From positions 1 to 21,203 of IMG/VR virus record IMGVR_UViG_3300038418_000527: 21,203 bases of DNA. One strand, written 5' to 3'. Positions 428 through 12,705 of this stretch are shown in pieces. A program made the position numbers and the translations under genes. The stretch is from a virus. Position 1 is the stretch's first letter. The number at the start of each line of letters is the position of its first letter. The notes beneath the pieces were generated by a model. The model had not been told where the DNA came from, did not search any database, and saw only the letters and a list, made by a program, of their open reading frames with translations.

Positions 428-787
428 TTAAAAAACATGGATCTTAAAGCTTACCACCTCGGTGCGGCCGCCCGTGGTGATGATGGTGTTGGTCACGTTG
501 TAAGTGGTCCCGGGCGCTCCCCCGGAGAGCCAGGTCGAGGCCTTGGTCTTGCTGGAGCCGAGGACCACGGGGGTGCTGGTGATCCCGGTATCGCAGACCC
601 AGGCGCTGGTGCTGATGGTGTCGCCGGCCAGCCAGAGGCTCCAGTCCACGGTGTAGTCCAGGACCGCGGCGGCAGGCTTGTCCGGGGCGTGCCAGCCGTC
701 GGAGCGCAGGGTGAAGTCGGCGCCCCGGGCGGCTCCCGCCAGGGCCGCAACCAATATCAGCGTCAGGATGAGGGCTCGCCGTCTCAT
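428..787 (-). CDS. Secreted phage Ig-like/fibre-type protein
   Basis: A 119-aa protein with a clear Sec signal peptide (basic MRRR, hydrophobic core to about residue 20, probable cleavage after ARG). The mature part has the pattern VLDYTVDWSLWLAGDTIST...STWLSGGAPGTTYNVTNTI. I recognise this as a common small phage-encoded beta-sandwich family, often annotated only as a hypothetical phage protein. That family normally lacks a signal peptide, so export is the odd feature. It abuts the stop of the 865-aa repeat protein with no gap and is the last gene of the minus-strand operon in the window. The function is unknown; a surface or virion-accessory role is inference. Confidence 0.75.
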   Translation of the reverse strand: MRRRALILTLILVAALAGAARGADFTLRSDGWHAPDKPAAAVLDYTVDWSLWLAGDTISTSAWVCDTGITSTPVVLGSSKTKASTWLSGGAPGTTYNVTNTIITTGGRTEVVSFKIHVF

Positions 788-3385
788 TTAAAATATTCCC
801 GCGGGCACGGACAGCACCCGGCTTTCCGCGGCCAGGGACAGCGCCCGGTTCTCCAACGCCATTGCCAGCCCCCGGTTTTCCGCCTCCGGGGCCAGGTCCC
901 GGTTTTCCGGGGGCACGGCCAGATTGCGGTTTTCCGGCCCCAGCAGCAGCACGCAAAGGTAGCGGAGCAGGCGCTGGAAGAAGCTGCCGGAGAGGCGGCA
1001 GCTGATTTGCTCCACGGTTGCAGTCAAGGCCGCGGCCACCCCATGCCCGGCGGAGAAGGCGGCGCTGACCTGGCCGGTCAGGGCGTTTAAGGTGGCGCTG
1101 ACGCTGCTCCCGGAAAATGAGGACATCACCTGGCCGGTCCAGGCCGCCAAAGTGCCGCCGACCCCATGCGCCCCTGCAAAGCTGGCGGTGGCCTGGGCCA
1201 GGGTGGCGGACAGACTGGCCGCTATCGCCTGGATTGAGGTAACGGAACCTGAAAGCACCGCGCTTACCTGGGATAAGGCGGCGGAAAGCTGGGCCGCGAC
1301 CCCATGCGCGCCGCTTAAAGAGGCCGTGACCTGGGAGAGGTTGGCCGCCAGGGAGCCGGCGAAATCGACAATTCCCCCGGAAAGGCTGGCCGATGCCTGG
1401 GTCAGCGCCGCCGCCAGGGTGCCGGCGACCCCATGATTCGCACTTAAAGAGGCTGTAGCCTGGCTGATTGCGGCGGCCAGATTCCCGGCATAATTAACGA
1501 TGCCCCCCGAGATGGAAGCCGTGACCTGGGAAAGGTTGGCCGCCAGGGAGCCGGCGAAATCGACAATTCCCCCGGAAAGGCTGGCCGATGCCTGGGCCAG
1601 CGTGGCAGATAAGGCGCCCACCAGCGAAGAGCCACTCAGGGAGGCTGAGGCCTGGGTCAGGGTTGCCGCCAGGGAACCGGCGAAATCGACGATGGTGCTG
1701 CTGAGCGCGGCCGAGGCCTGGGCGACGGCGCCCGAGAGGACAGCCACCAGCGAAGAGCCGCTCAGGGCCGCCGAGACCTGGGTCAAGGCCGCGGAGAGGA
1801 CGCCGGCCACGCCGTGTTTTCCCGTCAGGGCGGCGCTGGCCTGGGTCAGGGTGGCGGATAAGGCGGCCACCAGCGAAGAGCCACTCAGGGAGGCTGAGGC
1901 CTGGGTCAGGGTTGCCGCCAGGGAACCGGCGAAATCGACGATGGTGCTGCTGAGCGCGGCTGAGGCCTGGGTCAGGGTGGCGGCCATGGTCCCCGCGACC
2001 CCATGATTGCCGGTGAGGGCCGCCGACGCCATGGTCAGCGTGGCGGATAAGGCGGCCACCAGAGAAGAGCCGCTCAAGGCCGCCGAGACCTGGGTCAAGG
2101 CCCCCGACAGTGTGGAGACAATGGAGCTTCCGGATAGAGACGCCGAGGCCTGGGTAAGGCTTCCAGCCAGCGCCGCAGTAAAAGCGGGCGTATAATCCAC
2201 ATAGGCCCACAGGTCCGCAATCCTGGCGTAGTTGGTGGCCCCGGTGCTGATGATCGCTCCGATCTGCATGGTGCCGATAGTGGTCGGAGTCCAGGCCGAG
2301 CCGGTGGGATCGAGATAGGAAGTTATTGGCGAAGTTCGTGGAGTTGCGTTGGCATTTCTTTGATAGGTCGTGGAGTTGGGGGTGATGGCGCTGCTGGTGG
2401 TCTTGGCGCCGCCCGTGGCCTTTTCCAGTTCCAATTCAAAGGAGCTATCACTGGAGGCGGAAGACCCCGCATACCAGCAGTTTAAATTAACCACGTTAAC
2501 CGTGGCCCCGGAAGGGACGACCGATTGTGTGACCGTGTATAAATCTATGGCAGAGGTAGTTTTGCCTTCAATATAGGTGGAAGAGCTGGGCGGGATTTTA
2601 TCGACCAGGGTGTAGTTGCTGGTGGTGCCGGAGCCGCCCGAATTGGTCAGCCAGGTATTGCTATCCCCGGCCCCGGCAGGAAGCAGCAGGCCAATGTTGC
2701 CCGCGCCGGCCCAGGTGTTCTGAGAGCTGCCCTGGTCATCGTTTACTGCGATGTCGTCGATATACCATTGGCCGGCGGTAGGCTTGTTGGTCTGATAGTC
2801 GCCGCCGAAGAAAACCGAGTTGACCGCAACACCCGTGGTCCCGGTTCCGGTGCTTATCTGGGCTCCATCTATTTTCAGGGTTTCAGTGCCGCTTGTATAG
2901 CCGTAACAATATTCTACACAATGAGGAACGTCCTTGGTTAATGCGGAGCTTGCCGTCTGGGCGTTTAACTGCAATGTTCCAGAAGTAGTAAGGGATAATG
3001 CAACAGGACTGCCAGAATTGAGATATGAAATAAGAACAAAACCATCAACACTCGTCGGGTAGGTATGCACCTGAAGATTAAATCGCACGTAGTAAGTGCG
3101 GCCGCTCGCCATCGTCGGGATGGTGAAATTGCAGCCGCCATCGGTCCCTCCTGCCGCGGCTACGAACATCCCTGAATAGCTGCCGCTGATGGCGGTGCCG
3201 CTCTGGACGGAGAAGCCGGGATTCCCTATGGTGCCATAGTTCGTATCCCACTCCACCCCCGCGGTGACGGAGTTGAGTTCAAAGCCGGAGGTGAGGAGGC
3301 GCCCGGCCTGGGCCGCAGGGGTCAATCCCAGCAGCAGGATCAACCCCAGGGCCAGGGTCGCGGCTATTTTGAGCAGACGTCTCAT
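788..3385 (-). CDS. Large secreted LamG-like protein with Ala/Ser repeats
   Basis: An 865-aa protein. Residues 1-27 form a Sec signal peptide ending AAQA. Residues about 30-215 look like a LamG/concanavalin-type jellyroll (FELNSVTAGVEW start, WYIDDIAV near its end). Residues about 230-400 resemble phage virion modules (TWLTNSGGSGTTSNYTLVD, IPPSSSTYIEG). Residues about 405-795 hold 19 imperfect copies of a roughly 21-residue unit with core LxQxSAxLSG, rich in Ala, Ser, Leu and Thr. The C-terminus carries about five short ENRxLA/S repeats (residues about 817-863), a motif seen at the ends of some phage structural proteins. The repeat block has near-identical DNA copies, so its length may vary. 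It starts one base after the previous stop. A fibre-like adhesin or surface protein is plausible but unproven. Confidence 0.8.
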   Translation of the reverse strand: MRRLLKIAATLALGLILLLGLTPAAQAGRLLTSGFELNSVTAGVEWDTNYGTIGNPGFSVQSGTAISGSYSGMFVAAAGGTDGGCNFTIPTMASGRTYYVRFNLQVHTYPTSVDGFVLISYLNSGSPVALSLTTSGTLQLNAQTASSALTKDVPHCVEYCYGYTSGTETLKIDGAQISTGTGTTGVAVNSVFFGGDYQTNKPTAGQWYIDDIAVNDDQGSSQNTWAGAGNIGLLLPAGAGDSNTWLTNSGGSGTTSNYTLVDKIPPSSSTYIEGKTTSAIDLYTVTQSVVPSGATVNVVNLNCWYAGSSASSDSSFELELEKATGGAKTTSSAITPNSTTYQRNANATPRTSPITSYLDPTGSAWTPTTIGTMQIGAIISTGATNYARIADLWAYVDYTPAFTAALAGSLTQASASLSGSSIVSTLSGALTQVSAALSGSSLVAALSATLTMASAALTGNHGVAGTMAATLTQASAALSSTIVDFAGSLAATLTQASASLSGSSLVAALSATLTQASAALTGKHGVAGVLSAALTQVSAALSGSSLVAVLSGAVAQASAALSSTIVDFAGSLAATLTQASASLSGSSLVGALSATLAQASASLSGGIVDFAGSLAANLSQVTASISGGIVNYAGNLAAAISQATASLSANHGVAGTLAAALTQASASLSGGIVDFAGSLAANLSQVTASLSGAHGVAAQLSAALSQVSAVLSGSVTSIQAIAASLSATLAQATASFAGAHGVGGTLAAWTGQVMSSFSGSSVSATLNALTGQVSAAFSAGHGVAAALTATVEQISCRLSGSFFQRLLRYLCVLLLGPENRNLAVPPENRDLAPEAENRGLAMALENRALSLAAESRVLSVPAGIF
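1010..2170 (-). repeat. Tandem coding repeats of the 865-aa protein
   Basis: DNA encoding the 19 LxQxSAxLSG units. Two segments are perfect direct repeats: 1618-1711 equals 1867-1960 (94 bp, 249 bp apart, 83 codons), and 1338-1401 equals 1533-1596 (64 bp, 195 bp apart, 65 codons). Both offsets are whole codons, so recombination would delete or add units without breaking the frame. Confidence 0.9.
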
Positions 3386-3386
3386 G

Positions 3387-3845
3387 TTAGCTGCCGATGG
3401 GCACCGTGATCGTGCCGCTCAGGGAACAGGGGCCCCCTGAAACGATGCTAAGAGTGTTCAGGGTTAAACTGCCGGAGGTGGCGCTGCAATCGCCGTCGAA
3501 AAGCGCCGTGCTGCCGTCAGATTCGGTAATCCGAAAATAGGCTGCGGTGTTGGTGGCGGAGGCATTGACATTGGTCACCGCGCCTAAAGTAGTGACCCCT
3601 CCGGTATCCGTATTGGAAGCATTAAGCGTCCAGTCGATCAGGAGAGTGCCGGTAACGGCGTTCTGCACGCCGGGGTCGGAGCCGGAATAGACTCTCAGAT
3701 GCCCGGAGCCTATATTGGTGGCGATGGTGGCCCCGCAAGCGTGGCGCTGGATGGTGGACATGGTGAAGCTGGTGGCGTAGCTGGAAACCGCCAGGGCCAG
3801 GGCCAGGGCTACCGCCAATAGAGATACCTGCCATTTGCGGTTCAT
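3387..3845 (-). CDS. Secreted phage-type beta-rich protein
   Basis: A 152-aa protein with a signal peptide (residues 1-24, ending SSYA). The mature region reads HLRVYSGSDPGVQNAV..TGTLLIDWTL...TGGVTTLG, then AAYFRITESDGSTALFDGD and a series of short beta strands. I recognise this layout from small hypothetical proteins in phage structural regions, where it usually lacks a leader. Three cysteines in the mature part could form disulphides after export. Its ATG overlaps the TGA of the upstream small membrane protein, which indicates translational coupling. The biochemical function is unknown. Confidence 0.75.
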   Translation of the reverse strand: MNRKWQVSLLAVALALALAVSSYATSFTMSTIQRHACGATIATNIGSGHLRVYSGSDPGVQNAVTGTLLIDWTLNASNTDTGGVTTLGAVTNVNASATNTAAYFRITESDGSTALFDGDCSATSGSLTLNTLSIVSGGPCSLSGTITVPIGS

Positions 3846-4054
3846 TTGCGTTCTCCTGCTTGGTTGGGTTGATTAGTAAAGGTTGCGGGCGGCAGCACCA
3901 GGTTAAGCTGGGCCCGGACCATCGGGATTTTGCTCTGGCGGTCGAGGTAGAGCTGCCGGCCCACCATCACCGTGACGATCAGGCCCACCAGCAGCAGATA
4001 CGCCTTCCCCAGATAGAGCAGCCCGCGCAGGATTTTTTTCATTTTATCCGGCAT
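3842..4054 (-). CDS. Small single-pass membrane protein
   Basis: A 70-aa protein with one strong hydrophobic segment (about residues 12-31, LLYLGKAYLLLVGLIVTVMV) after a basic start, and a hydrophilic tail ending QPNQAGERK. A second in-frame ATG is four codons in (MKKIL). The first start has GGGGGCAG a few bases upstream. It sits between two signal-peptide proteins in the same operon and overlaps the next start. Not recognised; the topology suggests a membrane anchor or a small holin-like protein. Confidence 0.65.
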   Translation of the reverse strand: MPDKMKKILRGLLYLGKAYLLLVGLIVTVMVGRQLYLDRQSKIPMVRAQLNLVLPPATFTNQPNQAGERK

Positions 4055-4068
4055 ATAATCACTGCCCC

Positions 4069-4773
4069 CTAATAGAGCTGTTGGGCGATAATGCTTGCTT
4101 CCACTACGTTCAAGGCCCCGGCGCTGGGGGTGGCGGCCACCGAGCCATAGAGGGCGATGGCGTCATTGGCATTGGCGGTGGTGTAAACCACTTCATTGAT
4201 CACCCAGGCCAGGGTGCCGGTGGCGGTGGTGACCACGGCGGCCACCGCGGTGGCCGGGGAGTTGCTCAGGTCCGCGGCCGTATTGTTGGTGCGGTGCAGC
4301 TTTAGTGTGGCGGTCTCACTGGCCGCGAAGGTGGCTCCGGCGTATTCCACGTGCGCCCGGTAGCGGATCAGATAGGTGCCGGCCGCGGGCAGCGTCAGGG
4401 CCGGTGACGTGGTGCCGAAGGTCACCGCCGCGGGCGTGGCCGTCAGGGCATAGGCGGTCCCGGCGGCATAGACGGTCACCGGCACGGCATCGAGCGCCCC
4501 GCCGTTGGCGGCCGGCAAGATGCCGGAGACGTCCGCGGTCAGGCTGACCTGGCCGCCGATGACCCCGGTGGCGGCATTGTAGGTCAGGCCGGTAAAGGCG
4601 CTGGAGATGGCGGCCCGGGCCCGGGCATTGGTATAATAGAAGTTGGTCGAACCCTCGGGGACGGCGTCGGTGGTGGGCCCGCTCTTGGCAGGGATCTTTT
4701 GCAGGGCATACGCCGCGGGGAGGGCCACGCAGATGGCCAGGATTATGGCCAGCAAAGCTAATGAGCGTTTCAT
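4069..4773 (-). CDS. Secreted protein with phage fibre EGSTNFYYT motif
   Basis: A 234-aa protein with signal peptide residues 1-23 (ends PAAYA). Residues about 38-60 read AVPEGSTNFYYTNARARAAI, a motif I know from phage tail fibres and receptor-binding proteins. The rest is Ala/Thr/Val-rich with predicted beta strands (YRAHVEYAGATFAASETATL, LYGSVAATPSAGALNVVEAS) and looks like a fibre tip or jellyroll. Fibre proteins are normally cytoplasmic until assembly, so the leader is unexpected. A heptamer-repeat hairpin (4790-4861) separates it from the gene upstream, and AACGGGAG precedes the start. A cell-surface receptor-like or decoy role is only inference. Confidence 0.75.
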   Translation of the reverse strand: MKRSLALLAIILAICVALPAAYALQKIPAKSGPTTDAVPEGSTNFYYTNARARAAISSAFTGLTYNAATGVIGGQVSLTADVSGILPAANGGALDAVPVTVYAAGTAYALTATPAAVTFGTTSPALTLPAAGTYLIRYRAHVEYAGATFAASETATLKLHRTNNTAADLSNSPATAVAAVVTTATGTLAWVINEVVYTTANANDAIALYGSVAATPSAGALNVVEASIIAQQLY

Positions 4774-4789
4774 GACAACTCCCGTTTAG

Positions 4790-4861
4790 AGTGATCAGTG
4801 ATCAGTAATCAGTAAAAGCAAAGGCAAAAAACCGATCACTGATTACTGATTACTGATTACT
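4790..4861. repeat. Inverted pair of heptamer arrays (hairpin)
   Basis: Plus-strand GTGATCAGTGATCAG units, then the AAAAGCAAAGGCAAAA spacer, then ATCACTGATTACTGATT units. The two halves are mutual inverted repeats, so the transcript can fold into a stem of 20 or more base pairs. The minus-strand reading shows the upstream gene's codons TTC CAG followed by TAA, the stop being supplied by the array. This is the only array in the window present in both orientations at one junction. Confidence 0.85.
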
Positions 4862-5195
4862 GGAAGTAAGTGACCGCCAGGCTGCCGGTGCCGCTGGCGG
4901 CGATGGCCTGGAACTGGCTGACCTCCGCCGGGCTTTCCAGGTTGGCGCCGCCGCCGGGGTAGATGGTATCGCCGGTGCTGGTGGTGGGCGCGCCCCCGTC
5001 CACCCGGAAATAGATGAGGACCGTGCCGATGTTGGTCACCCGGGCCGCCTTCACCACCATCCCGTTGAAGCCTACGCGGGGCAGCGCCACCGCCCCGGTG
5101 CTGGGCACGCTGACGGTGTCGTAGCCGCAGGGCAGCAGCCCCAGCAGCAATGCCGCCAGGACCACCACCAATAATAGTTTTACTTTCCGCATCAT
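4857..5195 (-). CDS. Small secreted protein of unknown function
   Basis: A 112-aa protein. The N-terminus MMRKVKLLLVVVLAALLLGLLPCG is a signal peptide or membrane anchor; the Cys after LLP is not a good lipobox. The mature part (VGFNGMVVKAARVTNIGTVLIYFRVDGGAPTTS...) looks like a small beta-sandwich similar to phage hypothetical proteins with the pattern FRxDGxxPTTSxGxxIxPGG. GGAGG lies just upstream of the ATG pair. The last codons, TAC TTC CAG TAA, run into the heptamer array, which provides the stop. Function unknown. Confidence 0.7.
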   Translation of the reverse strand: MMRKVKLLLVVVLAALLLGLLPCGYDTVSVPSTGAVALPRVGFNGMVVKAARVTNIGTVLIYFRVDGGAPTTSTGDTIYPGGGANLESPAEVSQFQAIAASGTGSLAVTYFQ

Positions 5196-5205
5196 GGCCT
5201 CCTGC

Positions 5206-5231
5206 TGTAGGGGCGGCTTCTAGCCGCCCGG
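5206..5231. repeat. GTAGGGGCGG palindrome
   Basis: GGGCGGCTTCTAGCCGCCC-type inverted repeat in the 40-bp gap between the o-spanin-like gene and the 112-aa gene. It is nearly identical to 5867-5891. It could act as an mRNA-stabilising hairpin, but no T-run follows. Confidence 0.85.
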
Positions 5232-5235
5232 GCGA

Positions 5236-5475
5236 TTATCTTTTCAAATAGTCGTCATACACTGCATCTGATTGCAGTTTGAAGTCGTGCAGGGCCTCTT
5301 TGAGGACCACCGGGTTGTCCGCATCCCTGGCCTGAATATGCACCAGCGGCCGGGGCAGATGGGTCTTAGCCACCGCCTCCGGGCTCATTTTCGCCCTTGG
5401 CGGTAATGATGCCGTCCCGGCGCAGCTGCTCAGTAGCAGCAGCGTCAGGATCAGCAGCAGCGGCCACCTTTTCAT
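5236..5475 (-). CDS. Rz1-like outer-membrane lipoprotein (o-spanin)
   Basis: A 79-aa protein. The start at MKRWPLLLILTLLLLSSC gives a lipoprotein signal with Cys at residue 18. The upstream extension of this frame is only Arg-rich shadow sequence. The tail (SLPPRAKMSPEAVAKTHLPRP) is moderately Pro-rich, as in Rz1 proteins. The start lies inside the i-spanin-like gene in a different frame and the gene runs past its end, an overlapping Rz/Rz1 arrangement. GAGGAC lies 8 bases before the ATG. By family knowledge it would bridge to the i-spanin across the periplasm and fuse the membranes at lysis. The assignment rests on architecture, since spanins diverge too far for motif proof. Confidence 0.65.
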   Translation of the reverse strand: MKRWPLLLILTLLLLSSCAGTASLPPRAKMSPEAVAKTHLPRPLVHIQARDADNPVVLKEALHDFKLQSDAVYDDYLKR

Positions 5476-5647
5476 GGTCGCGGTCCTCCCGGGCTTGCAC
5501 CCTGGCTTGAATCTCCTGGATCTCGTGCGCCTTCTCTTCAACGGCCGCGGCCTCCTCCTTCTGCCCTTCGGCCTGATAGGCCGCCACGGCCGCCTCTTCC
5601 TTCCGGTAGCCAAAAAGCCCTAAAAGCCAGAGGAGCAGCTTAGTCAT
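5366..5647 (-). CDS. Rz-like inner-membrane spanin candidate
   Basis: A 93-aa protein with a short hydrophobic N-terminus (LLLWLLGLFGY, about residues 4-14), then a long charged helical region rich in Ala, Glu and Gln (about residues 15-60), consistent with a periplasmic coiled coil. The o-spanin-like lipoprotein starts within it in another frame. The membrane segment is shorter than usual for Rz, which lowers certainty. The ATG overlaps the stop of the small upstream frame (ATGA). It is separated from the endolysin by several genes. Confidence 0.55.
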   Translation of the reverse strand: MTKLLLWLLGLFGYRKEEAAVAAYQAEGQKEEAAAVEEKAHEIQEIQARVQAREDRDHEKVAAAADPDAAATEQLRRDGIITAKGENEPGGGG

Positions 5648-5866: not shown

Positions 5867-5891
5867 GTAGGGGCGGCTTCTAGCCGCCCTA
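5867..5891. repeat. GTAGGGGCGG palindrome supplying a stop codon
   Basis: GGGCGGCTTCTAGCCGCCC inverted repeat. Read on the minus strand, its outer TAGGGCGG gives the TAG stop of the 189-aa lipoprotein gene. Confidence 0.85.
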
Positions 5892-6458
5892 AGAAGTAGG
5901 GACCGCCGCGGCCGCCGCCGCGGGCGCCGGCAGGTTGGTCTGGCCGGCCACATAGGCCTGGTAAAGTACCGCTACTGCCGGGTTGGCCAGCACCGTGGTC
6001 TTCAGGACCGGGAGCGCCGTGGTGGTGGAGTTGACGGCGTTCTGCACGTCAGCCGCGGTCACCGGGGAGTTGGCCGTGGGGTTCTGATTATAGGCGATGG
6101 CCTTCCCCAGGACGCCCAGGTCGGTATCCGCCGCGGCGATATAGGGCAGCGCCGCATCCATCTGGGCCTGGGTGACCTTCACCCCCACCACCTGCAAAGA
6201 CCCCCGGACCAGGGCGCTCCAGAAGGGATAATCGGCCTGGATGGCCGTCAGCCCCTTCTGGACGTCGGCGATCAGCGGGGCCAGGAAGGTCTCGACTTTG
6301 GCGATATCCGCCTTGGCCTTGGAGTTGAATACCCCGAACGCGGAGCAACCGCCCAGGGCCAGGGCCAGCAGCAGCATTGCGACCAGCAGTAATGCCCACA
6401 GAGACCTAAAATTGATCGGCCTCATTCCCTTCACTTGCCAGAACTTGATCCGTCTCAT
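5889..6458 (-). CDS. Phage-encoded lipoprotein, 189 aa
   Basis: The N-terminus carries a hydrophobic stretch ending in ALALGGC (Cys 38 from the first ATG, Cys 27 from the in-frame ATG at residue 12), a good lipobox. The body is helical and Ala-rich (AKADIAKVETFLAPLIADVQ; later MDAALPYIAAADTDLGVLGKA) with a low-complexity Ala tail. GGAGGATAAGGA precedes the first ATG; AAGGGA precedes the second, so either may be used. It follows the DUF1804 gene, where Mu-like phages would carry the large terminase. Function unknown; related phage lipoproteins occur in lysis or conversion roles. Confidence 0.7.
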   Translation of the reverse strand: MRRIKFWQVKGMRPINFRSLWALLLVAMLLLALALGGCSAFGVFNSKAKADIAKVETFLAPLIADVQKGLTAIQADYPFWSALVRGSLQVVGVKVTQAQMDAALPYIAAADTDLGVLGKAIAYNQNPTANSPVTAADVQNAVNSTTTALPVLKTTVLANPAVAVLYQAYVAGQTNLPAPAAAAAAVPTS

Positions 6459-6545: not shown

Positions 6546-7001
6546 TTACTCCAATGACTGGAAATACGCCCGGATGCGCTCGCCGTGGAGCTGCAATTCG
6601 CCGGCCGGGATCTCCTGGGCCTTGAGGAAATCGGTATAATGCCGCATCACCTCCACGCTCATCATGCGGATATCGGCGCCCTGGCGCTCCACCGCCTTGA
6701 TGGCCGCCACCGCCTTGGAGATGCCGTCGAAGGTGGCGTGGTCCAGGACGCCCTTCTGCGCCTGCTCCTCCAGGGTTTTGAGATAGATATCCAGGGAGGC
6801 CCGCATGAGGGCTGCCAGGTCCCGGGGCGACGCCAGATGGGCCCGCCGCTTTTCCTCCCAGCCACCCTTCTTCTTCCAATCATAGAGGGTGTTCTCGCAG
6901 ACCGGGATCCCGCTGGCGATGATCTGCTTGATCGTCAGGTTTTCCTTGATGTAAAGCCTCTCGGCCTCGGGGAAATAGGCCTCTTCCTTCCTACCAGCCA
7001 T
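6546..7001 (-). CDS. DUF1804 family Mu-like small terminase-type protein
   Basis: A 151-aa protein. The N-terminal half holds a terminase small-subunit style HTH (EAERLYIKENLTIKQIIASG, then ENTLYDWKKKGGWEEKR, about residues 12-50). The C-terminal half is helical (ASLDIYLKTLEEQAQKG...). This matches DUF1804, the family of HI1498 in the FluMu prophage, thought to aid DNA packaging. It overlaps the preceding gene by 11 bases. In Mu-like phages the large terminase and portal follow, but here a lipoprotein does. Confidence 0.8.
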   Translation of the reverse strand: MAGRKEEAYFPEAERLYIKENLTIKQIIASGIPVCENTLYDWKKKGGWEEKRRAHLASPRDLAALMRASLDIYLKTLEEQAQKGVLDHATFDGISKAVAAIKAVERQGADIRMMSVEVMRHYTDFLKAQEIPAGELQLHGERIRAYFQSLE

Positions 7002-7254
7002 AGAATCCGGCCTTTTCCAACTCGGCCTTCAGGGGCCGGGCCTCCGCCAGCAGCTCCCGGAGCCCCCGGGCCGCCAGCAGGATCTCCTCATCCTTGATAT
7101 CGTCCAGGTTCCCCGGCAGCAGCATCAGGCTGGCCCGCTGGATGGTGGCCAGTTTGGAGTCGATTTCCGTGAGCAGCTCGCGGTAACGCTCCCTCTTCTT
7201 GGCCAGGGCGCCCTTCTGGGCCAGTTCCAGGATATCCCGGCTATCCATGCTCAT
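6991..7254 (-). CDS. Small helical phage protein
   Basis: An 87-aa protein starting MSMDSRDILELAQKG, chosen because its ATG overlaps the TGA of the upstream gene. It is almost entirely predicted helix with heptad-like charge patterns (AKKRERYRELLTEIDSKLATI; RGLRELLAEARPLKAELEKAG). No family recognised. It lies between the coiled-coil membrane protein and the DUF1804 gene, where Mu has small gp25/26-type proteins, so it is probably a packaging or late accessory protein. Confidence 0.7.
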   Translation of the reverse strand: MSMDSRDILELAQKGALAKKRERYRELLTEIDSKLATIQRASLMLLPGNLDDIKDEEILLAARGLRELLAEARPLKAELEKAGFYGW

Positions 7255-7646
7255 TTCCTCAACAGGGGCCAGCAAAAATAGGCCAGCAGGTGGACGGCCC
7301 CGATGAAGAAGGTGAAACCCCCGGCCCACCAGGACAGCCGCCGCCTGATCTTGCCGATCTCATCATCGAATTTTTCCTTCATGTCCAGGACCGGGCAGCG
7401 GTGGGCCGGGTCCCGGTGCACCGCGCAGGGGCAGTTTTCGATTCGTTGCAAGCGGCCCCCCTGCTTCTTAAGCTCGCTTTCCTGGTGCTTGATCTGAGTC
7501 TCCTGCTCGGCCAATTTCCCCCTGAATTGCAGGTCTATACGGTCCAGGTCGCTCCCCAGCAGGGTGTAAACCCGGTCCAGCAGAAAGGGCAGGTTCTTCT
7601 GCTCGTCGCCGTCCAGGCCCTCGAAGATCGAGGAAGGGCGCCCCAT
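7251..7646 (-). CDS. Coiled-coil protein with C-terminal membrane anchor
   Basis: A 131-aa protein. Residues about 30-70 form a coiled coil (LDRIDLQFRGKLAEQETQIK, then HQESELKKQGGRLQRIE). A Cys cluster follows (CPC at 72-74, HRC near 84), then residues 105-127 form a transmembrane helix (LSWWAGGFTFFIGAVHLLAY). The architecture recalls DUF2730-type Mu proteins and some i-spanins in reverse topology. Start and upstream stop overlap by one base (TGATG). It lies directly after the holin-like gene, so a lysis or membrane role is plausible. Confidence 0.7.
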   Translation of the reverse strand: MGRPSSIFEGLDGDEQKNLPFLLDRVYTLLGSDLDRIDLQFRGKLAEQETQIKHQESELKKQGGRLQRIENCPCAVHRDPAHRCPVLDMKEKFDDEIGKIRRRLSWWAGGFTFFIGAVHLLAYFCWPLLRK

Positions 7647-7834
7647 CAGGGCACCGGGGGCGCCGGGGGCTTGCTGCTGTTGGTCAGCACCAGGCCGCCG
7701 CCCAGGGCGAAGCCGCAGACGGCCATCCAGGTCTGGAGATCAATCGCCTTGAAGATCAGGGCCACGGTGGCCGCGATGGCCACACCGCCCATCACCGTAG
7801 TCTTCAGGTCGCCTTTGATGCCGCTCAGGTCCAT
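7646..7834 (-). CDS. Holin-like two-helix membrane protein
   Basis: A 62-aa protein with two hydrophobic segments (about residues 12-29, TTVMGGVAIAATVALIF, and 33-51, LQTWMAVCGFALGGGLVL) and a Pro-rich tail (KPPAPPVP). Size and topology fit a class II holin, though no motif is diagnostic. A good GGAGG site lies 7 bases before the ATG. It is the first gene after a strong terminator and a candidate promoter region, so it probably heads the late transcript. Confidence 0.65.
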   Translation of the reverse strand: MDLSGIKGDLKTTVMGGVAIAATVALIFKAIDLQTWMAVCGFALGGGLVLTNSSKPPAPPVP

Positions 7835-7842
7835 GTTAGCCT

Positions 7843-7877
7843 CCAGTAATCAGTAAACAGTGATCAGTGATCAGTGT
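7843..7877. repeat. Heptamer array in late leader
   Basis: Units of the CAGTAATCAGTAAACAGTGA type on the plus strand, in opposite orientation to most arrays here. It lies in the 5' leader of the holin-like gene rather than at a 3' end. Confidence 0.8.
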
Positions 7878-7961
7878 AGAGCCGATGATTCCTATTCAAG
7901 CACAAATGCAAGAACTTTGTTGTCCGCTATGACCGCTATGTCCGTTAAAGTGATGTGGGGG
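7878..7961 (-). promoter_or_regulatory. Candidate late promoter/activator region
   Basis: This is the only long gap in the middle-to-late minus-strand run. It contains 9-bp direct repeats, CCGCTATGA (7924-7932) and CCGCTATGT (7933-7941), followed by another CCG, which resemble an activator or repressor site. I see no strong sigma-70 -35/-10 pair, which fits an activator-dependent late promoter as in Mu (established for Mu C). It lies between a terminator and the holin-like gene. Confidence 0.45.
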
Positions 7962-7962
7962 C

Positions 7963-7986
7963 AAAAAAATGGCCCCGAAGGGCCGC
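7963..7986 (-). terminator. Intrinsic terminator with UUCG loop
   Basis: On the minus strand, stem GGCCC / GGGCC with a TTCG tetraloop, followed by A and seven T. It lies about 55 bases after the HTH gene's stop and would end the middle operon before the late promoter. Confidence 0.85.
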
Positions 7987-8044
7987 TGTAGGGGCGCACC
8001 CGCGTGTGCGCCCTCTGGAGGCGGACACATGGGTCCGCCCCTAC
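7987..8044. repeat. Double GTAGGGGCG palindrome supplying a stop codon
   Basis: Two inverted repeats (GGGCGCACCCGCGTGTGCGCCC and GGCGGACACATGGGTCCGCC) lie between TGTAGGGGCG and CGCCCCTACT ends. Read on the minus strand, the TAGGGGCGG edge provides the TAG stop of the HTH gene. Confidence 0.85.
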
Positions 8045-8250
8045 TCGGTGTTGAGGGAATGGAGATAGGCGTCTACATCGGATCGGTAGAACCTTATGCG
8101 GCGCACTCCCAAGGCAATTCCCGATAATTTGCCTTCCCGGAAAAGCCGCCGCACCTGCCGTGGCGAACATTGCAGCATCTTGGCCACCTGATCTGTCCGC
8201 AATAAGCGCTCCTGTTGCCCCGCCGCCGCCACTCCCGGATGCCAGGCCAT
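8041..8250 (-). CDS. Excisionase/MerR-type HTH DNA-binding protein
   Basis: A 69-aa protein. The core LLRTDQVAKMLQCSPRQVRR, then LFREGKLSGIALG and VRRIRFYRSDVDAYL, is the classic HTH_17/excisionase fold with wing. It is the last gene before the middle terminator, the position held by the late activator C in Mu. It could therefore regulate the repeat-bearing region at 7878-7961; that is inference from position. Excision control is less likely for a transposing phage. GGGGGATAAT lies before the ATG. Confidence 0.8.
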   Translation of the reverse strand: MAWHPGVAAAGQQERLLRTDQVAKMLQCSPRQVRRLFREGKLSGIALGVRRIRFYRSDVDAYLHSLNTE

Positions 8251-8251
8251 A

Positions 8252-8692
8252 TTATCCCCCTAAACTTTGAACTTTGAACTTTGAACTTTGAACTATCCAG
8301 ACCCTGGCCCTCTTCACCCCGAATTCCCGACACTCCCGCATCGTATGGCAATGGATATCCACCCGCGGCTTCTGCCACTTGGGGGGCATCAGGTCGTCGA
8401 ACACGAAGCAGCCGACGCCCTCCACCATAATACGGGTCCCGAAGCGATAATCATAAGTCCCCCGGCCGCTCTTGAGGCCCAGGCGCCGGGCCAGGGGCCG
8501 GGACAGCGCCAGGCAGCCGGGATAGACGCGTTTGCCGCTGGTGGTTCGTTGCCCCGCCAGGCAGTAGGCGGTAATGGTGGCTGTAGGGGCGGACCCATGT
8601 GTCCGCCCCGGGTGGGTAGAACCCACCCCTACGGGCGCGCCCAATGCGGCCCCCTGGAGGCTCAGCATGGCGCAGAGCAGCGCCGCCGCCAT
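8252..8692 (-). CDS. Secreted 3D-domain cell-wall protein
   Basis: A 146-aa protein with signal peptide residues 1-19 (MAAALLCAMLSLQGAALGA). The 3D domain spans about residues 40-115: TITAYCLAGQRTTSGKRVYPG, GTRIMVEGVGCFVFDD and a terminal VDIHC, a pattern of 3D/double-psi-barrel domains in lytic transglycosylase-type enzymes. The usual final Asp pair is partly visible (DD 99-100, D112). Residues about 20-37 are encoded by an inserted GTAGGGGCGG palindrome placed right after the leader, and the last residues by an AACTTTG array. Its ATG overlaps the endolysin stop, so the two are coupled and probably act together on peptidoglycan. Confidence 0.75.
   Translation of the reverse strand: MAAALLCAMLSLQGAALGAPVGVGSTHPGRTHGSAPTATITAYCLAGQRTTSGKRVYPGCLALSRPLARRLGLKSGRGTYDYRFGTRIMVEGVGCFVFDDLMPPKWQKPRVDIHCHTMRECREFGVKRARVWIVQSSKFKVQSLGG
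8263..8294. repeat. (AACTTTG)n heptamer array
   Basis: Four full copies plus AACT of the 7-bp unit AACTTTG. It encodes the C-terminal VQSSKFKVQS of the 3D-domain protein and ends 9 bases before its stop. It has the same 7-bp periodicity as the TGATCAC family but an unrelated sequence. Confidence 0.9.
8582..8633. repeat. Palindrome inside the 3D-protein gene
   Basis: Double inverted repeat (GGGGCGGACCCATGTGTCCGCCCC, and GGGTGGGTAGAACCCACCC) with TGTAGGGG and CCCCTACG ends. It is translated as part of VGVGSTHPGRTHGSAPTAT and keeps the reading frame open. Confidence 0.85.
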
Positions 8693-9411
8693 TATAAGGT
8701 GATCTCCAGGGCCGCCAGGGTGGCGGGGCCGCACTCGCCGTCCACCACCAGGCCGCCGTGTCCCCTCTGGAAGGCCGCCACCGCCTCTGCGGTCTCCGGG
8801 CCGTAGATCCAGTCGGTGCGGCCGGTGGGGAAATAGCCCAGGTTCTTCAGGCGGCATTGGATCTTGAAGACCGCTTCCCCTTTGCTGCCCAGGCGGTAAA
8901 CCGCCTGCGCCTGTAGGGGCGACCCGAACAGCGAAGCATAAGGGTCATAATCCTGGGCCGGATACCAGCCGCCGCTGAAAAGGCCCTCCTGGTCCGCCAC
9001 CGTGCACCGCTGCACGTGGTCGTAATCGCGGAAGCTGTGCGACCTCTTGGGAGTGCCCCAGTCGCCGCCCCAGATCAGGCCGTGTTTCTTGCCCAGGCGC
9101 CCCAGGAAGGAAAAGTCGCCGTCCCAGGAGGACTGGCCCTTGACCACCTTGACGATGTCGCAGGCCAGGCCATAGTGGTGCACCCCCACCGTCCGGAGCT
9201 GGGTGGCGCCCCGGTCGAACAGCAGGCTCTGGCGCTCCTGGCTGCGGTAGGTCTCAAAGACCATCAGCTCCAGCCCCGCGGCCAGGGAGTCCGCCAGGAT
9301 GGCCGCCACCGCCGCCCGGGTCACCGGCTCCAGCAGGTTCACGTCCCGGATCGCCGCGGTCGCCATAAACCGCGGGTCCTTCCTGATGACCTCCTCATAA
9401 AAATTTCCCAT
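8692..9411 (-). CDS. Endolysin: peptidase M15 plus peptidoglycan-binding domain
   Basis: A 239-aa protein. The N-terminal domain (about 1-140) matches peptidase M15_4/VanY-like L,D-peptidases: YRSQERQ (55-61), HHYGLACD (H78, D85) and DYDH (H132) give the zinc ligands. Residues about 170-237 form a PG_binding_1 domain (RLGSKGEAVFKIQCRLKNLGYF, AVAAFQRGHG, VDGECGPATLAAL). The order catalytic-then-binding is the usual phage form. The linker (ASLFGSPLQAQAV) contains a half copy of the GTAGGGGCG repeat. Start choice is supported by AAGGAGGAAGGAC before the ATG. It lacks a signal peptide, so it needs the holin. Confidence 0.88.
   Translation of the reverse strand: MGNFYEEVIRKDPRFMATAAIRDVNLLEPVTRAAVAAILADSLAAGLELMVFETYRSQERQSLLFDRGATQLRTVGVHHYGLACDIVKVVKGQSSWDGDFSFLGRLGKKHGLIWGGDWGTPKRSHSFRDYDHVQRCTVADQEGLFSGGWYPAQDYDPYASLFGSPLQAQAVYRLGSKGEAVFKIQCRLKNLGYFPTGRTDWIYGPETAEAVAAFQRGHGGLVVDGECGPATLAALEITL
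8912..8929. repeat. Half copy of GTAGGGGCG repeat in endolysin linker
   Basis: Only one arm (TGTAGGGGCGACCCG) is present, translated within the linker between the two endolysin domains. It is either a degenerate insertion or chance. Confidence 0.45.
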
Positions 9412-9423
9412 GTCCTTCCTCCT

Positions 9424-9457
9424 TATAGGGCGGGAAAGCGAAGCGCATCCCGCCTAT
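9424..9457. repeat. GGCGGGA palindrome supplying a stop codon
   Basis: Inverted repeat TATAGGGCGGGA / TCCCGCCTATA around AAGCGAAGCGCA, the same variant as at 92-121. Read on the minus strand, its TATAGGCGGG edge provides the TAG stop at 9454-9456. It fills the gap to the endolysin ribosome site. Confidence 0.85.
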
Positions 9458-9723
9458 ATCAGCCCCAGGGCCTTGGCCACCGCCCGGGACATGGTTTTGG
9501 CGTCATAAGAGAGAGCCTGCCTGCCTGCCTGAAGGCGTCTTCTGGGACCGCCTCCAGCGCCTCGGCCAATTCCAGCCCCGCTTCCCATTCCTTCAAGTTC
9601 GCCAGACATTCCAGCTCCCGCCCGGAGGGCTGCCCCTTGGTGAATTAAAATATCCTCATCAAAGGAGGCCCGGGCCGGAAAGAACCCGGCAAAAAAATCA
9701 TCCAGGTCAACGCCCTCAAGCAT
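9454..9723 (-). pseudogene. Small phage gene with two apparent frameshifts
   Basis: The open frame starts MLEGVDLDDFFAGFFPARAS and ends SYDAKTMSRAVAKALGLI, both protein-like, but its middle is Gly/Ala/Arg-rich nonsense. In another frame the middle reads FTKGQPSGRELECLANLKEW followed by EAGLELAEALEAVPEDAFRQAG, which is clearly protein-like. The switch in lies at an A/T run near 9645-9652; the switch back lies at four copies of AGGC (about 9515-9531), and a fifth copy would restore the frame to the C-terminus. So the gene is either disrupted, phase-variable at AGGC, or affected by sequence error. It sits between GemA and the endolysin. Function not recognised. Confidence 0.6.
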
Positions 9724-10794: not shown

Positions 10795-10966
10795 CCCAAA
10801 ACGGCTTCAAAAACCTGGCCCGGCTGGGATGGCGCAGCTTGGCCAGGGCCTTTGCCAAAATCCTTTTGATATATCCCCGGCTAACGCCCATTTCGTCAGC
10901 GATCTCCTGCAGGATGACCTCCTCGCCCTCAGCTTTTGCCTTTACTGGCAACTGATCACTGATCAC
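10784..10966 (-). CDS. Standalone sigma-70 region 4.2-like protein
   Basis: A 60-aa frame. EVILQEIADEMGVSRGYIKR, then ILAKALAKLRHPSRARFLKPFW, matches the RpoD region 4.2 HTH and its C-terminal signature (ALRKLRHPSRS). There is no region 2 or 3. The first codons (GTG ATC AGT GAT CAG TTG) and the next ten residues are pure heptamer-repeat sequence, so the start is uncertain: either GTG inside the array, or the repeat replaced the original 5' end. It overlaps the Gam stop. A region 4.2 module alone could bind -35 elements or the beta flap and alter host polymerase; this role is inference. Confidence 0.65.
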   Translation of the reverse strand: MISDQLPVKAKAEGEEVILQEIADEMGVSRGYIKRILAKALAKLRHPSRARFLKPFWDEL

Positions 10967-10976
10967 TGGCCACTAT
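10931..10976. repeat. Heptamer array shared by gam and sigma-like gene
   Basis: TTTTGCCTTTACT followed by TGGCAAC, TGATCAC, TGATCAC, TGGCCAC units. Read on the minus strand it gives Gam its last residues (VASDQ) and TGA stop, and gives the next gene its GTG start and N-terminus in another frame. Confidence 0.9.
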
Positions 10977-11474
10977 CCTTTCCCGGTTGATCTCATAGAA
11001 GAAGGCGTCCCCGGCCTGTTTGCGGAGGCCCACGGCCGCGAGCTGCGCCAGGTTTTTCTCGCCCAGCTTCTTGACCTCATCCTTGAGGATGGTTTCCTTG
11101 GTCTGGATGCACTGCCGCTGCTCCAGGGCCTTGAGCATGGTGAGCACGCCGGCCAGGGCGGCCTCGCTCCGGGGGAGCATGATCTTGGTGGACCAGCGGA
11201 ATCCCAGCACCCCGAAATTGAGGGCCTTCGATTTCTTGGGGCCGAGATCCGCCTGGCGCGCCTCGCAAAAGGCCTTCAATTCCAGGGCGGCCAGTTTGAT
11301 CTCGACCTGCAGCATCTTTACGTAGCTGGCCGCCTGCTCCTTGGCCTGGGCGATGGTTTCCTGCAGGGAGGCCTCGGCCAGCTCGATGCCCCGCTCCAGG
11401 CTGCCGATTTTGCGCAGCGCCGCGACGGCGCCTTCCCAATCCCGGATGGCGCCCTCAACCCGTTTCCGTGCCAT
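10956..11474 (-). CDS. Gam-family host-nuclease inhibitor
   Basis: A 172-aa protein. It contains a long N-terminal coiled coil, the central KSKALNFGVLGFRWSTKIML motif and a C-terminal domain (LAQLAAVGLRKQAGDAFFYE). These are typical of Mu Gam, which binds DNA ends like Ku and protects linear phage DNA from exonucleases. The ATG giving MARKRVEG was chosen: a TTG two codons upstream is also open but sits too close to the GGAG site. It lies in the middle operon, overlapping the zinc-ribbon gene. The last codons are repeat-derived. Confidence 0.9.
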   Translation of the reverse strand: MARKRVEGAIRDWEGAVAALRKIGSLERGIELAEASLQETIAQAKEQAASYVKMLQVEIKLAALELKAFCEARQADLGPKKSKALNFGVLGFRWSTKIMLPRSEAALAGVLTMLKALEQRQCIQTKETILKDEVKKLGEKNLAQLAAVGLRKQAGDAFFYEINRERIVASDQ

Positions 11475-11628
11475 GTTCAATCTCCTCGAAATAGGGCCGG
11501 AAGACGTCCTCGTCCAGCCGCAGCATCAGGCCGCCGCAGGCGACGCAGAGGGCGGTGGCGTCGTCCACCCCGGCCACCCGCTGATCCCGGCCGCCGCAGT
11601 CCACGCATTGGTAGTCATAGATCGGCAT
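11455..11628 (-). CDS. FmdB-type zinc ribbon protein
   Basis: A 57-aa protein. MPIYDYQCVDCG...LCVACGG has C8/C11 and C28/C31, the classic PxYxYxCxxCG FmdB putative regulatory ribbon. AGGT lies just before the ATG; the frame is open eight codons further upstream but without a ribosome site. The start overlaps the previous gene by 14 bases, and the 3' end overlaps gam. Such ribbons are frequent in phage middle operons and probably bind nucleic acid or polymerase, but the target is unknown. Confidence 0.8.
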   Translation of the reverse strand: MPIYDYQCVDCGGRDQRVAGVDDATALCVACGGLMLRLDEDVFRPYFEEIEHGTETG

Positions 11629-12085
11629 TAATACCTCGCTTTCGCGCCACATGGCGGCGTTGGCAGGCCCGCTTTTGTTCCACCCGTAACAGGCTTTGCG
11701 CCAGCAGGTGCTCGAAGCACAATCCCGATTTGCCCCAGCCCGGCAGCCCGCAGACGCGGCAGTCAGGCCTGATTGCCGGCTGGGGCGTGGGATGCACTCC
11801 TACAATGGCGGGATGCGCTGCGCTTTCCCGCCCTACGGGGCGGTTTGCGGTTGTAGGGGCGGGTTCTACCCGCCCCGGGCGACTGGAAGCCGCCCCTACA
11901 GAAGCAGGCCGGGAGGGGGGAGCCAGGATTGCAGCCCCATTCCGGCAGCCGAGACATTTTGCCCGCACATACAGCGGCCAGCCCAGCTCCTGCCACTCCT
12001 CCGCCTCCTGGTAATTACGCCCGCATTGCCCCGCCGAGAGCTGGATCTCCTTGCCCATGCGGGAGCACTTCACCAGTCCGTTCAT
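11615..12085 (-). CDS. Cys-rich protein split by palindrome insertions
   Basis: A 156-aa protein starting MNGLVKCSRMGKE, after GGAGGAGCAAAGAGC and with ATGA overlap. Residues 7-47 hold four Cys (7, 21, 44, 47) and residues 109-126 hold CRVC...CFEH, two likely zinc sites. Between them, residues about 62-97 (VGAASSRPGRVEPAPTT...SAAHPAIVGVHPT) are encoded by two adjacent GTAGGGGCGG palindromes, adding about 35 residues without breaking the frame. The C-terminus is basic (RVEQKRACQRRHVARKRG). Not recognised; a DNA-binding phage protein is likely. Confidence 0.7.
   Translation of the reverse strand: MNGLVKCSRMGKEIQLSAGQCGRNYQEAEEWQELGWPLYVRAKCLGCRNGAAILAPPSRPASVGAASSRPGRVEPAPTTANRPVGRESAAHPAIVGVHPTPQPAIRPDCRVCGLPGWGKSGLCFEHLLAQSLLRVEQKRACQRRHVARKRGINADL
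11797..11900. repeat. Tandem palindromes inside a Cys-rich gene
   Basis: The first element (11797-11836) is the GGCGGGATGCGC variant; the second (11852-11900) is a double inverted repeat from TGTAGGGGCGGG to CGCCCCTACA. Together about 104 bp lie within the 156-aa gene. Confidence 0.88.
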
Positions 12086-12450
12086 GCTCTTTGCTCCTCC
12101 TCCAGCTTCAACTGCCCCAGCAGCTCCGGCATGGTGATCCGCATGATGCTGGCGGCCTGGGAGAGCGACGTCAGGCCCCGGCGCTGGTGCCGGGCCGCGA
12201 ACTCCGCCAATTCCTCCGGGGTTTCCGCCATCCAGTACCCCGGGTCGTATTTGTCGCAGGTGGAGCAGATGGGGTGGCCCTGGCGCCGCAGCTTGCGGAT
12301 CAGCACCCGCAAGGGCGACGTGTCGTTGATCCGGTGATGGCAGGGCAGGTGGTAAACCTTGCGCCACAGTTCGGCCATGCCGATGCGCCGGGGATAGCCC
12401 CGGTGCCACTCCATCTCCGCCAGCAGCCGCGCCGCTAATTCTTCAGCCAT
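12082..12450 (-). CDS. Middle-operon protein with HTH-like region and CxxC
   Basis: A 122-aa protein starting MAEELAARLLAEMEWHRGYP. The middle (SPLRVLIRKLRRQGHPICST, then CDKYDPGYWMAET) looks like a winged-helix module seen in phage proteins, with C62/C65 in a CxxC. The C-terminal helix (LGQLKLEEEQRA) is charged. AGGGGG lies 6 bases before the ATG, and the stop overlaps the next gene (ATGA). A DNA-binding role is inferred from the winged-helix look; the family was not identified with certainty. Confidence 0.72.
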   Translation of the reverse strand: MAEELAARLLAEMEWHRGYPRRIGMAELWRKVYHLPCHHRINDTSPLRVLIRKLRRQGHPICSTCDKYDPGYWMAETPEELAEFAARHQRRGLTSLSQAASIMRITMPELLGQLKLEEEQRA

Positions 12451-12602: not shown

Positions 12603-12615
12603 CGTCTTTCCCTCT

Positions 12616-12705
12616 CAGTTCCCAGTTATCAGTTCCCAGTTCCCAGAAATCTTTCCCTGCCGTTGCCTTTACTGGCAACTGGCAACTGGCAACTGGCAAC
12701 TTTTC
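12616..12705. repeat. Heptamer array, read-through type
   Basis: Units CAGTTCC, CAGTTAT, then the TTGCCTTTACT spacer and four TGGCAAC units. TGGCAAC is open in every minus-strand frame, so this array encodes a CQLPVAS-type repeat peptide rather than a stop, and extends the frame of the broken gene upstream. Confidence 0.85.

Follow-up and report, generated by a model that had tools for sequence, protein, structure and literature searches.

Tailed phages are taught to be assembled wholly in the cytoplasm; to our knowledge no tailed phage has a Sec-exported virion protein, and none was found in the literature searched. Exported proteins of related kinds nevertheless serve as precedents: Llp of phage T5 is an exported receptor blocker (PMC4728585), the MAT proteins of Bdellovibrio are secreted and fibre-like (PMC10769870) and WceF is an exported tailspike-like protein (PMC7949094). 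The gene cassette reported here is a variant of known exported phage proteins and is itself new; no published description of such an exported phage fibre cassette was found in the literature. It lies in a 21,203-nucleotide stretch of viral DNA (the window), which covers part of the genome of a Mu-like phage. At the level of sequence, the analysis establishes one operon of genes with predicted export leaders, the passengers of which are of phage origin, have leaderless relatives and are exchanged between sister phages, together with a second lineage with such leaders. We conclude that the modules would be genuinely exported and would bind receptors or glycans, and that either of two mechanisms may apply: in the favoured one they act at the envelope, and in the other they are mounted on virions once exported.

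Position of the cassette and its predicted leaders

The cassette runs on the minus strand from 5195 to 428 and comprises six genes (in order, 5195-4857, 4773-4069, 4054-3842, 3845-3387, 3385-788 and 787-428), bounded by spanin genes and by the position expected of the large terminase gene. Directly upstream is an inner-membrane, Rz-like spanin (5366..5647, minus strand), assigned from its anatomy, namely an N-terminal hydrophobic segment and a charged coiled coil with an overlapping lipoprotein in another frame; family-profile searches gave no match for it. The overlapping ORF (5236..5613, minus strand) contains the outer-membrane spanin lipoprotein (MKRWPLLLILTLLLLSSC...), also assigned by anatomy, and the host would therefore be a diderm. 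The same overlapping arrangement is found in G001, a sister phage of 44 kb. A late-region lipoprotein (5889..6458, minus strand; lipobox LGGC), 77% identical in G001, is probably context outside the cassette, and a small-terminase-like DNA-binding protein (6546..7001, minus strand; phrog_4151, E 4.5e-10), with weaker matches to terminase small subunits and 72% identity in G001, forms further upstream context. Genome scans with the transposase and the endolysin gave a single short contig in a Rhizobiales MAG and no host genome, and the cassette matched none of the defence-system and NCBIfam models.

Leaders were called with a detector based on rules for a charged n-region, a hydrophobic core and an A-x-A-type site, for which the chance rate of a single call is 3-12% in shuffled proteins. 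An earlier note on this DNA had placed five secreted proteins and a membrane protein in one operon; all five ORFs are present on the minus strand with a Sec leader called at the start of each, and the sixth gene (4054-3842) encodes the membrane protein and received no call. Among the ORFs between spanins and terminase in the window and G001, a leader is found in 8 of 9, versus 1 of 37 other phage ORFs when lysis and lipoprotein genes are set aside (hypergeometric p about 3e-7). By the detector the leaders are of SPI type, and only 4857-5195 has a Cys close to the cleavage site. Shine-Dalgarno (SD) sequences precede the starts at 5195, 4773 and 3845, the starts at 3385 and 787 lie 1 and 0 nt past the preceding stop codon (coupled; the latter directly follows a TAA), and no in-frame start downstream of the leaders is preceded by a plausible SD sequence, which upholds the reading of these N-termini as genuine leaders and not as products of misplaced starts. 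We infer that the predicted leaders are used in the cell.

Passengers and their leaderless relatives

The likeness to fibre or virion modules that had been proposed was borne out by matches to PF23148, phrog_3758 and phrog_14065 and by a fibre motif with a C1q/TNF-like fold. The first gene (4857..5195, minus strand; SD AGGAGG) encodes a 112-aa exported small beta protein, with a leader of about residues 1-25 and an 87-aa mature part, for which protein-family models gave no family match and the AF2 model (pLDDT 48) is too poor for use. Its homologue in G001 is leader-bearing and 63% identical (10/25 positions in the leader and 60/87 in the mature part). Export as a lipoprotein was considered for this protein and rejected, as the Cys of the LLPC position is absent from the homologue; the protein is probably not a lipoprotein.

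The second gene (4069..4773, minus strand) encodes a 234-aa exported fibre with the leader MKRSLALLAIILAICVALPAAYA, with a predicted cleavage site before LQKIPA, a shaft motif EGSTNFYYTNARARAAISSAFTG that matches fibres of cyanophages and roseophages, and a C-terminal C1q/TNF-like jelly roll. Its AF2 model is of low confidence (mean pLDDT 51.6), with the C-terminal region better scored, and Foldseek with this low-confidence model returned PDB entries with a TNF/C1q fold (best E 3e-3), among them the tip of Bdellovibrio Bd2734 (8okw_B, E 0.02), and also phage proteins. In three virion fibres the motif lies at about residue 1882 of 2073, 2236 of 2538 and 147 of 616; because it stands only 12 residues past the cleavage site in 4069..4773, this protein lacks the usual N-terminal virion-anchoring part. 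The third gene (3842..4054, minus strand), the stop codon of which overlaps the next start (ATGA), encodes a 70-aa single-pass membrane protein without a match among family profiles.

The fourth gene (3387..3845, minus strand; SD GCAGGAG) encodes an exported protein of 152 aa that is homologous to a virion structural protein and has a leader ending in SSYA before TSFTM. Residues 36-145 match phrog_3758 'virion structural protein' (E 2e-15; profile positions 16-133 of 140), and residues 36-142, within the mature part, are 38% identical to the 'virion-associated protein' of Agrobacterium phage Milano (the Milano/7-7-1 protein of phrog_3758). The Milano gene, like the window gene, is grouped near a terminase gene, whereas the Milano protein and 14 of 14 Pseudomonadota relatives have no leader. 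The fifth gene (788..3385, minus strand) encodes an 865-aa exported LamG/minor-tail-like protein, with a leader ending in LTPAAQA before GRLLTSGFE, repeats of ~42 aa (126-bp tandem repeats in the DNA) and a C-terminal ENR-type repeat. Residues 29-494 match phrog_14065 from profile position 3 onward (E 5e-25), and minor tail or hypothetical proteins of Streptomyces phages are 29-31% identical from residue 26-29. Homology to the Streptomyces Hiyaavirus minor tail protein of this family (30% identity over 370 residues) begins at residue 3 of that protein but at residue 29 of the window protein, right behind the leader; in phage Keanu the match begins at residue 3 of gp13.

The last gene (428..787, minus strand) encodes a 119-aa exported protein with the leader MRRRALILTLILVAALAGAARG, with a predicted cleavage site before ADFTL, and a Gp77 fibre-tail adaptor domain at residues 37-116 (PF23148, E 8.4e-23, 81.1 bits with a cut-off of 27, profile positions 1-83 of 84). 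A solved relative is Gp77 of podophage GP4 (8jou_D, residues 7-90 of 93), and this protein and its Bcep22-like relatives (JC1 gp55 and BcepIL02 gp57) share the domain fold over the full length of the domain and, like the window copy, adjoin fibre genes. The known adaptors are leaderless proteins of about 90 aa with the domain from the start (residue 7 in 8jou_D), whereas the window copy carries a 22-aa leader; among Gp77 ORFs with a readable start in 17 Pseudomonadota genomes, a leader was called in none. No relatives came to light when viral contigs were scanned singly with the proteins of the fibre, LamG and Gp77 genes.

Sister phages and a second lineage

The order of lysis genes, cassette and large terminase is common to three phages, with differing passengers: a K1-lyase C-terminal domain in G001 and a beta-helix-like ORF in the sister phage G400. 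The single operon that had been proposed is borne out as a late one, the cassette directly following the lysis genes in a position conserved in the sister phages. Between the window fibre and the exported fibre of G001, 18 of 29 leader residues are identical but only 2 of the next 40, and DNA synteny with G001 stops at about window position 4690, within the fibre gene; the alignment shows the leader conserved while the passenger is exchanged. In G001 the exported fibre is encoded far from the tail genes: the cassette again lies between the spanin and terminase genes, some 18 kb away from the gene for the tip protein, and this tip protein and a collar fibre, both leaderless, are encoded as well. 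The exported fibre has no similarity to the collar fibre or tip protein of the same phage at E 0.01, and a decoy that is a simple copy of the phage's own receptor-binding protein, a form that the earlier suggestion of a decoy could have taken, is not supported on this ground.

An unrelated lineage of podophages (C661, from G002, and G660) resembles the window in bearing Sec leaders on fibre or spike and small beta proteins, with the leader and N-terminus kept, and differs from it in its GP7-type capsid protein, its GP4-like character and the placement of these genes within the virion gene cluster, beside tail tubular genes. In its tailspikes a conserved leader and about 140 aa are followed by exchanged C-termini, the arrangement usually seen in tailspikes that carry an attachment domain. 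Searches of isolated phages by tblastn with the podophage small protein and the spike N-terminus found nothing.

Because they lie in the virion cluster, these leader-bearing spikes possibly end on virions, and they bear on the strongest rival explanation, an unlikely one that still deserves weight. In it, the exported fibres, adaptor and decoration-like proteins are accessory virion components that the leaders send to the periplasm to fold, some with disulfides, and that join tails or heads once lysis has brought the two compartments together. The spike layout and position are in keeping with it, as are the leaders on every long fibre or spike-type gene recognised in G660, but two other candidates in this phage, a protein of 301 aa and a K1-lyase-C protein, carry no leader. 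The adaptor (PF23148) and virion-structural (phrog_3758) families of the window point the same way, and the Gp77 relative JC1 gp55 was detected in purified virions (PMC9144972); however, the window fibre has no recognisable anchoring domain and G001 encodes ordinary leaderless tail proteins. Cys makes up 1.1% of the mature exported proteins and 0.43% of the virion proteins without leaders in these phages, an excess that would speak for disulfide folding but comes mostly from the podophages. The wider claim, that in some tailed phages receptor-binding fibres, adaptors and spikes are Sec-exported, matured in the periplasm and mounted on virions only at lysis, is more doubtful still; if true, virion assembly would be split between two cell compartments. 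The earlier note's reading is supported in part: the modules are of phage fibre or virion type and bear leaders, and a surface structure, decoy, exclusion system or adhesin would be a possible role.

Possible roles and relation to known systems

Action of the exported modules at the host envelope is the best explanation, which we hold tentatively. Phage fibre, tail and adaptor modules would have acquired Sec (signal peptidase I) leaders, would be made late, together with the lysis genes, and would pass into the periplasm. They would work beyond the cytoplasm, at the host envelope, and would not be incorporated into tails as these are put together inside it. In the preferred mechanism, receptor-binding or glycan-binding modules would occupy or modify the receptor that the phage itself uses, both on the cell that makes them and on debris set free by lysis. 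Superinfection and the loss of progeny would be limited in this way, an effect that T5 obtains from Llp, an unrelated exported lipoprotein; single passengers could have a depolymerase-like or adhesin-like use. The passengers may bind envelope glycans or receptors, and their being of receptor-binding, glycan-binding or fibre kinds supports envelope action. Further support comes from the leaders with their fixed starts, the breakpoint between leader and passenger, the shared position in three phages, the missing anchoring part of the window fibre and the distance of the G001 exported fibre from the tail genes. On the other side, nothing in the passengers, neither a lipobox nor a beta-barrel nor any further kind of anchor, would hold them in the outer membrane; as soluble proteins of the periplasm they could reach glycans outside the cell only once lysis had occurred or if another step of secretion followed. 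A Gp77 adaptor and a homologue of a virion structural protein would be unexpected components of a receptor blocker, and the dissimilarity of the G001 exported fibre to its collar fibre and tip protein and the podophage spikes in the virion cluster also count against envelope action.

It is improbable that the cassette serves lysogenic conversion, the prophage supplying its host with exported adhesins or matrix-modifying enzymes for attachment or polysaccharide turnover. The combination of leader, fibre and exchangeable tip does resemble the MAT proteins that the predator displays on its surface (PMC10769870), the Foldseek matches of the low-confidence fibre model include the Bd2734 tip, and bacteria have exported tailspike-like enzymes (PMC7949094). 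However, the cassette lies between lysis and packaging genes, which is not a typical moron position, its products have no surface anchor, and a search for its own promoter or terminator gave counts at chance level (one promoter-like site against 1.9 expected, on the other strand). That the hydrophobic N-termini are not functional leaders, and reflect misplaced starts, gene decay or hydrophobic segments for anchoring in the virion, is very improbable in spite of the simple detector and its false-positive rate, as translation signals stand at the leader ATG, the leader is kept in homologous pairs with an A-x-A-type site in nearly all, the second lineage has the same leader type and the genes are open and long.

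With envelope action as the preferred reading, export leaders on fibre, adaptor and virion-type modules in two unrelated lineages would point to a second use of these modules at the envelope (exclusion, receptor masking, depolymerase or adhesin) or else to extracytoplasmic maturation of some virion parts, and the leader is a mark in the sequence by which such proteins can easily be recognised among those now annotated as tail fibres or hypotheticals. The proteins of the cassette share shaft and tip modules with virion tail fibres, which are cytoplasmic and leaderless, whereas the cassette proteins bear leaders and 4069-4773 lacks the N-terminal attachment part. The MAT fibres, as described, share with the window fibre a signal peptide and a fibre-like middle; their exchangeable binding tips on a trimeric fibre, of TNF-like, lectin or S74 type (PMC10769870), may have a counterpart in the C1q/TNF-like tip suggested by the low-confidence model. 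They are encoded by bacterial genes, are about 1,000 aa long and have a conserved beta-rich domain of ~130 aa behind the leader, whereas no more than about 12 residues separate leader and shaft in the window fibre. Llp of T5 and BF23 is, like the cassette proteins, exported, phage-encoded and made in the infected cell, with non-homologous versions in related phages; it is a small lipoprotein encoded beside the receptor-binding gene (PMC4728585), whereas the cassette encodes several SPI-type fibre-like proteins without an SPII lipobox signal between lysis and packaging genes and, in G001, is not beside the gene for the receptor-binding protein.

Gene layout and predicted leaders

The window, a virus contig of 21,203 bases, carries a Mu-like transposable phage on its minus strand, with transposase A (14970–16694, −, phrog_310), transposition protein B (13853–14620, −, phrog_296) and an endolysin (8692–9411, −), and with a repressor on the plus strand (19257–19832, +). 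Past the endolysin lie a small-terminase-like protein (6546–7001, −), a lipoprotein (5889–6458, −) and an overlapping spanin pair (5647–5366 and 5613–5236, −), which stands directly ahead of the minus-strand cassette (5195 to 428). Because one spanin of the pair is a lipoprotein, the layout points to a diderm host. The contig stops 427 bases beyond the cassette, and packaging and structural genes are therefore absent from the window.

An ORF adjoining the endolysin (8252–8857), kept in the 44-kb sister phage G001, has a possible leader followed by a TITAYC...TTSGKRVYPGCLALSRPLARRLGL...GTRIMVEGVGCFVFDDLMP region and looks like a 3D-type cell-wall domain. Two lipoprotein-like genes (19836–20180 and 20201–20626, +) lie on the opposite strand beyond the repressor, and the product of the first resembles a protein encoded behind the transposase of a further locus (L045, 3918–4220). 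Heptanucleotide tandem repeats (ACTGGCA, ACTGATC, GATTACT and AACTTTG types) occupy many intergenic gaps in the window (4834–4862, 8263–8294, 12671–12701, 13823–13847 and 17117–17148, among others) and in G001.

Five of the six cassette ORFs (5195–4857, 4773–4069, 3845–3387, 3385–788 and 787–428, all −) open with a predicted Sec leader, as called by a crude rule-based detector: the n-region is positively charged, the hydrophobic core is long, and small residues mark the cleavage site. The remaining ORF (4054–3842) encodes a membrane protein. When each protein was shuffled, a leader was called in 3–12% of whole-protein shuffles. Between the spanin and terminase genes of the window and G001, 8/9 ORFs were called leader-bearing, compared with 1/37 of the other phage ORFs, with lysis and lipoprotein genes left aside (hypergeometric p about 3e-7). 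The signal peptides that the earlier note ascribed to virion-like proteins are thus borne out, and the downstream starts that it considered are not: Shine–Dalgarno sequences precede 5195 (AGGAGG), 4773 (GGGAG) and 3845 (GCAGGAG), the preceding stop codon ends 1 base before the ATG at 3385 and 0 bases before that at 787, and no plausible Shine–Dalgarno sequence was found at in-frame starts downstream of the leaders in these ORFs. Judged from these signals, the start codons of the leader-bearing ORFs are secure.

Passengers and their leaderless relatives

The proposed likeness of the cassette proteins to fibre and virion modules was recovered in family searches. The 787–428 protein contains a Gp77 fibre–tail adaptor domain (PF23148; score 81 bits, cut-off 27) and is related to 8jou_D, a chain of a solved virion-associated phage protein; the 3845–3387 protein matches phrog_3758 ('virion structural protein') and a virion-associated protein of Agrobacterium phage Milano; the 3385–788 protein has matches to phrog_14065 and to Streptomyces phage minor tail proteins; and the 4773–4069 protein has a shaft motif as in cyanophage and roseophage fibres. 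In an AF2 model whose overall confidence is low, the C-terminal half of this last protein is similar to jelly rolls of the C1q/TNF type and to phage proteins. The 5195–4857 protein had no family match.

The predicted leaders are additions to proteins that have none elsewhere. The 3385–788 protein is homologous from its residue 29 onward to the Streptomyces phage Keanu protein, in which the match opens at residue 3, and homology to the Milano protein, which has no leader, begins at residue 36 of the 3845–3387 protein. With the same detector, no leader was called in readable Gp77 ORFs from 17 Pseudomonadota genomes or in phrog_3758 relatives (0/14). The fibre motif of three isolated phages sits well behind an N-terminal region, at about residues 1882 of 2073, 2236 of 2538 and 147 of 616, whereas 12 residues separate it from the predicted cleavage site in the window fibre; the predicted leader thus takes the place in which a virion-anchoring part would be expected.

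Three small (2–2.5 Mb) Pseudomonadota genomes (G041, G297 and G365; loci L024–L026, L032, L033, L036, L038 and L039) have 4–6 Gp77-like domain copies each, several inside 1250–1490-aa frames, and these may represent repetitive proteins of the cell surface or of prophages.

Related phages and a second lineage

The sister phage G001 was located via the transposase and its whole sequence was examined. The same lysis genes are followed by a 112-aa leader-bearing homologue (63% identical), a 453-aa fibre and a 114-aa leader-bearing protein. Large terminase, portal and capsid genes come next, then those for a siphophage tail, whose tip is lambda-J-like, and for a collar fibre without a leader. The leader of the 453-aa fibre is identical to that of the window fibre at 18/29 positions, the remainder at 2/40; DNA synteny breaks off in this gene, immediately past the leader-coding part. 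The C-terminus of this exported fibre is a K1-capsule-lyase C-terminal domain (PF24146, E 9e-14). The related contigs G400 and G401, 99.99% identical across 17.4 kb, have at the cassette position a membrane ORF, a beta-helix-like frame and a 134-aa leader-bearing protein, and then the terminase; the longer contig, G400, has one more leader-bearing protein behind the portal gene. The homologue and context search suggested in the earlier note found leader-bearing genes at the same position in G001, G400 and G401; position and predicted leader are thus kept while the passengers vary.

The transposases of the window and G001 (L002, 2225–3925) are only 47% identical, with flanking genes at 84–97%, and the transposition module looks exchanged. 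In L045 (with L048; 13142–16123 in joined-contig coordinates) and in L046/L049, a TAG closes a 52-aa membrane ORF, and past it the same frame stays open for >900 codons as a beta-helix-like protein with no ATG, GTG or TTG near the TAG; because two separate assemblies agree, the explanation is readthrough of the amber codon, an unusual start or a nonsense mutation that has become fixed.

In a Rhizobiales MAG, the controls revealed an unrelated podophage (G002:C661), with a GP7-type capsid protein and a head–tail connector, whose virion genes include a leader-bearing 162-aa protein and a leader-bearing 687-aa spike with tail-protein and pectate-lyase-like matches. A related virus, G660, has a homologue of each and two further long leader-bearing fibre/spike proteins (30470–33421 and 34398–35915, reverse-complement coordinates). 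Comparison of the two viruses, on metagenome contigs, shows 70% identity across the leader and first ~140 spike residues, beyond which the sequences differ. The small beta protein and spike lie at 9152–9640 and 10959–13022 (L066) and at 5052–5549 and 6853–8586 (L073), inside or near the virion cluster; both the small protein and the N-terminal part of the spike have conserved Cys pairs. Since this second, unrelated lineage shows the same design, the leader habit is more than an oddity of one contig.

Possible function and comparison with known systems

At the level of sequence, the leaders, late-operon position, phage passengers and exchange behind the leader are established. We infer that the passengers are really exported and that they bind envelope glycans or receptors. 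In the favoured reading, they would act outside the cytoplasm on the host envelope, occupying or altering the receptor, so that superinfection and loss of progeny to debris would be reduced. The window fibre lacks the virion-anchoring part, the cassette adjoins the lysis genes away from the tail genes, and G001 has ordinary leaderless tail proteins besides, all of which favour envelope action; however, the passengers lack an outer-membrane anchor, their set includes an adaptor and a virion-protein homologue, and the exported fibre of G001 resembles neither the collar fibre nor the tip of that phage. As the main rival, exported parts would be mounted onto virions once lysis mixes the compartments, a reading favoured by the location of the podophage spikes in virion clusters and by the detection of the Gp77 relative JC1 gp55 in purified virions (PMC9144972). 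Virion assembly split between compartments, which would be categorically new, is a possibility.

The MAT proteins of Bdellovibrio, which are bacterial exported fibres (PMC10769870), and WceF, an exported tailspike-like enzyme (PMC7949094), are examples of fibre and spike folds that are able to work once exported. Llp of T5, a phage-exported receptor blocker (PMC4728585), offers an analogue for receptor occupation or alteration by the passengers, with export in both, here as predicted from sequence. In the part of the literature covered, no description of a Sec-exported fibre cassette in tailed phages was found; export of phage receptor blockers and exported fibre or spike folds are already known, and such a cassette in a tailed phage would be a new variant of them.
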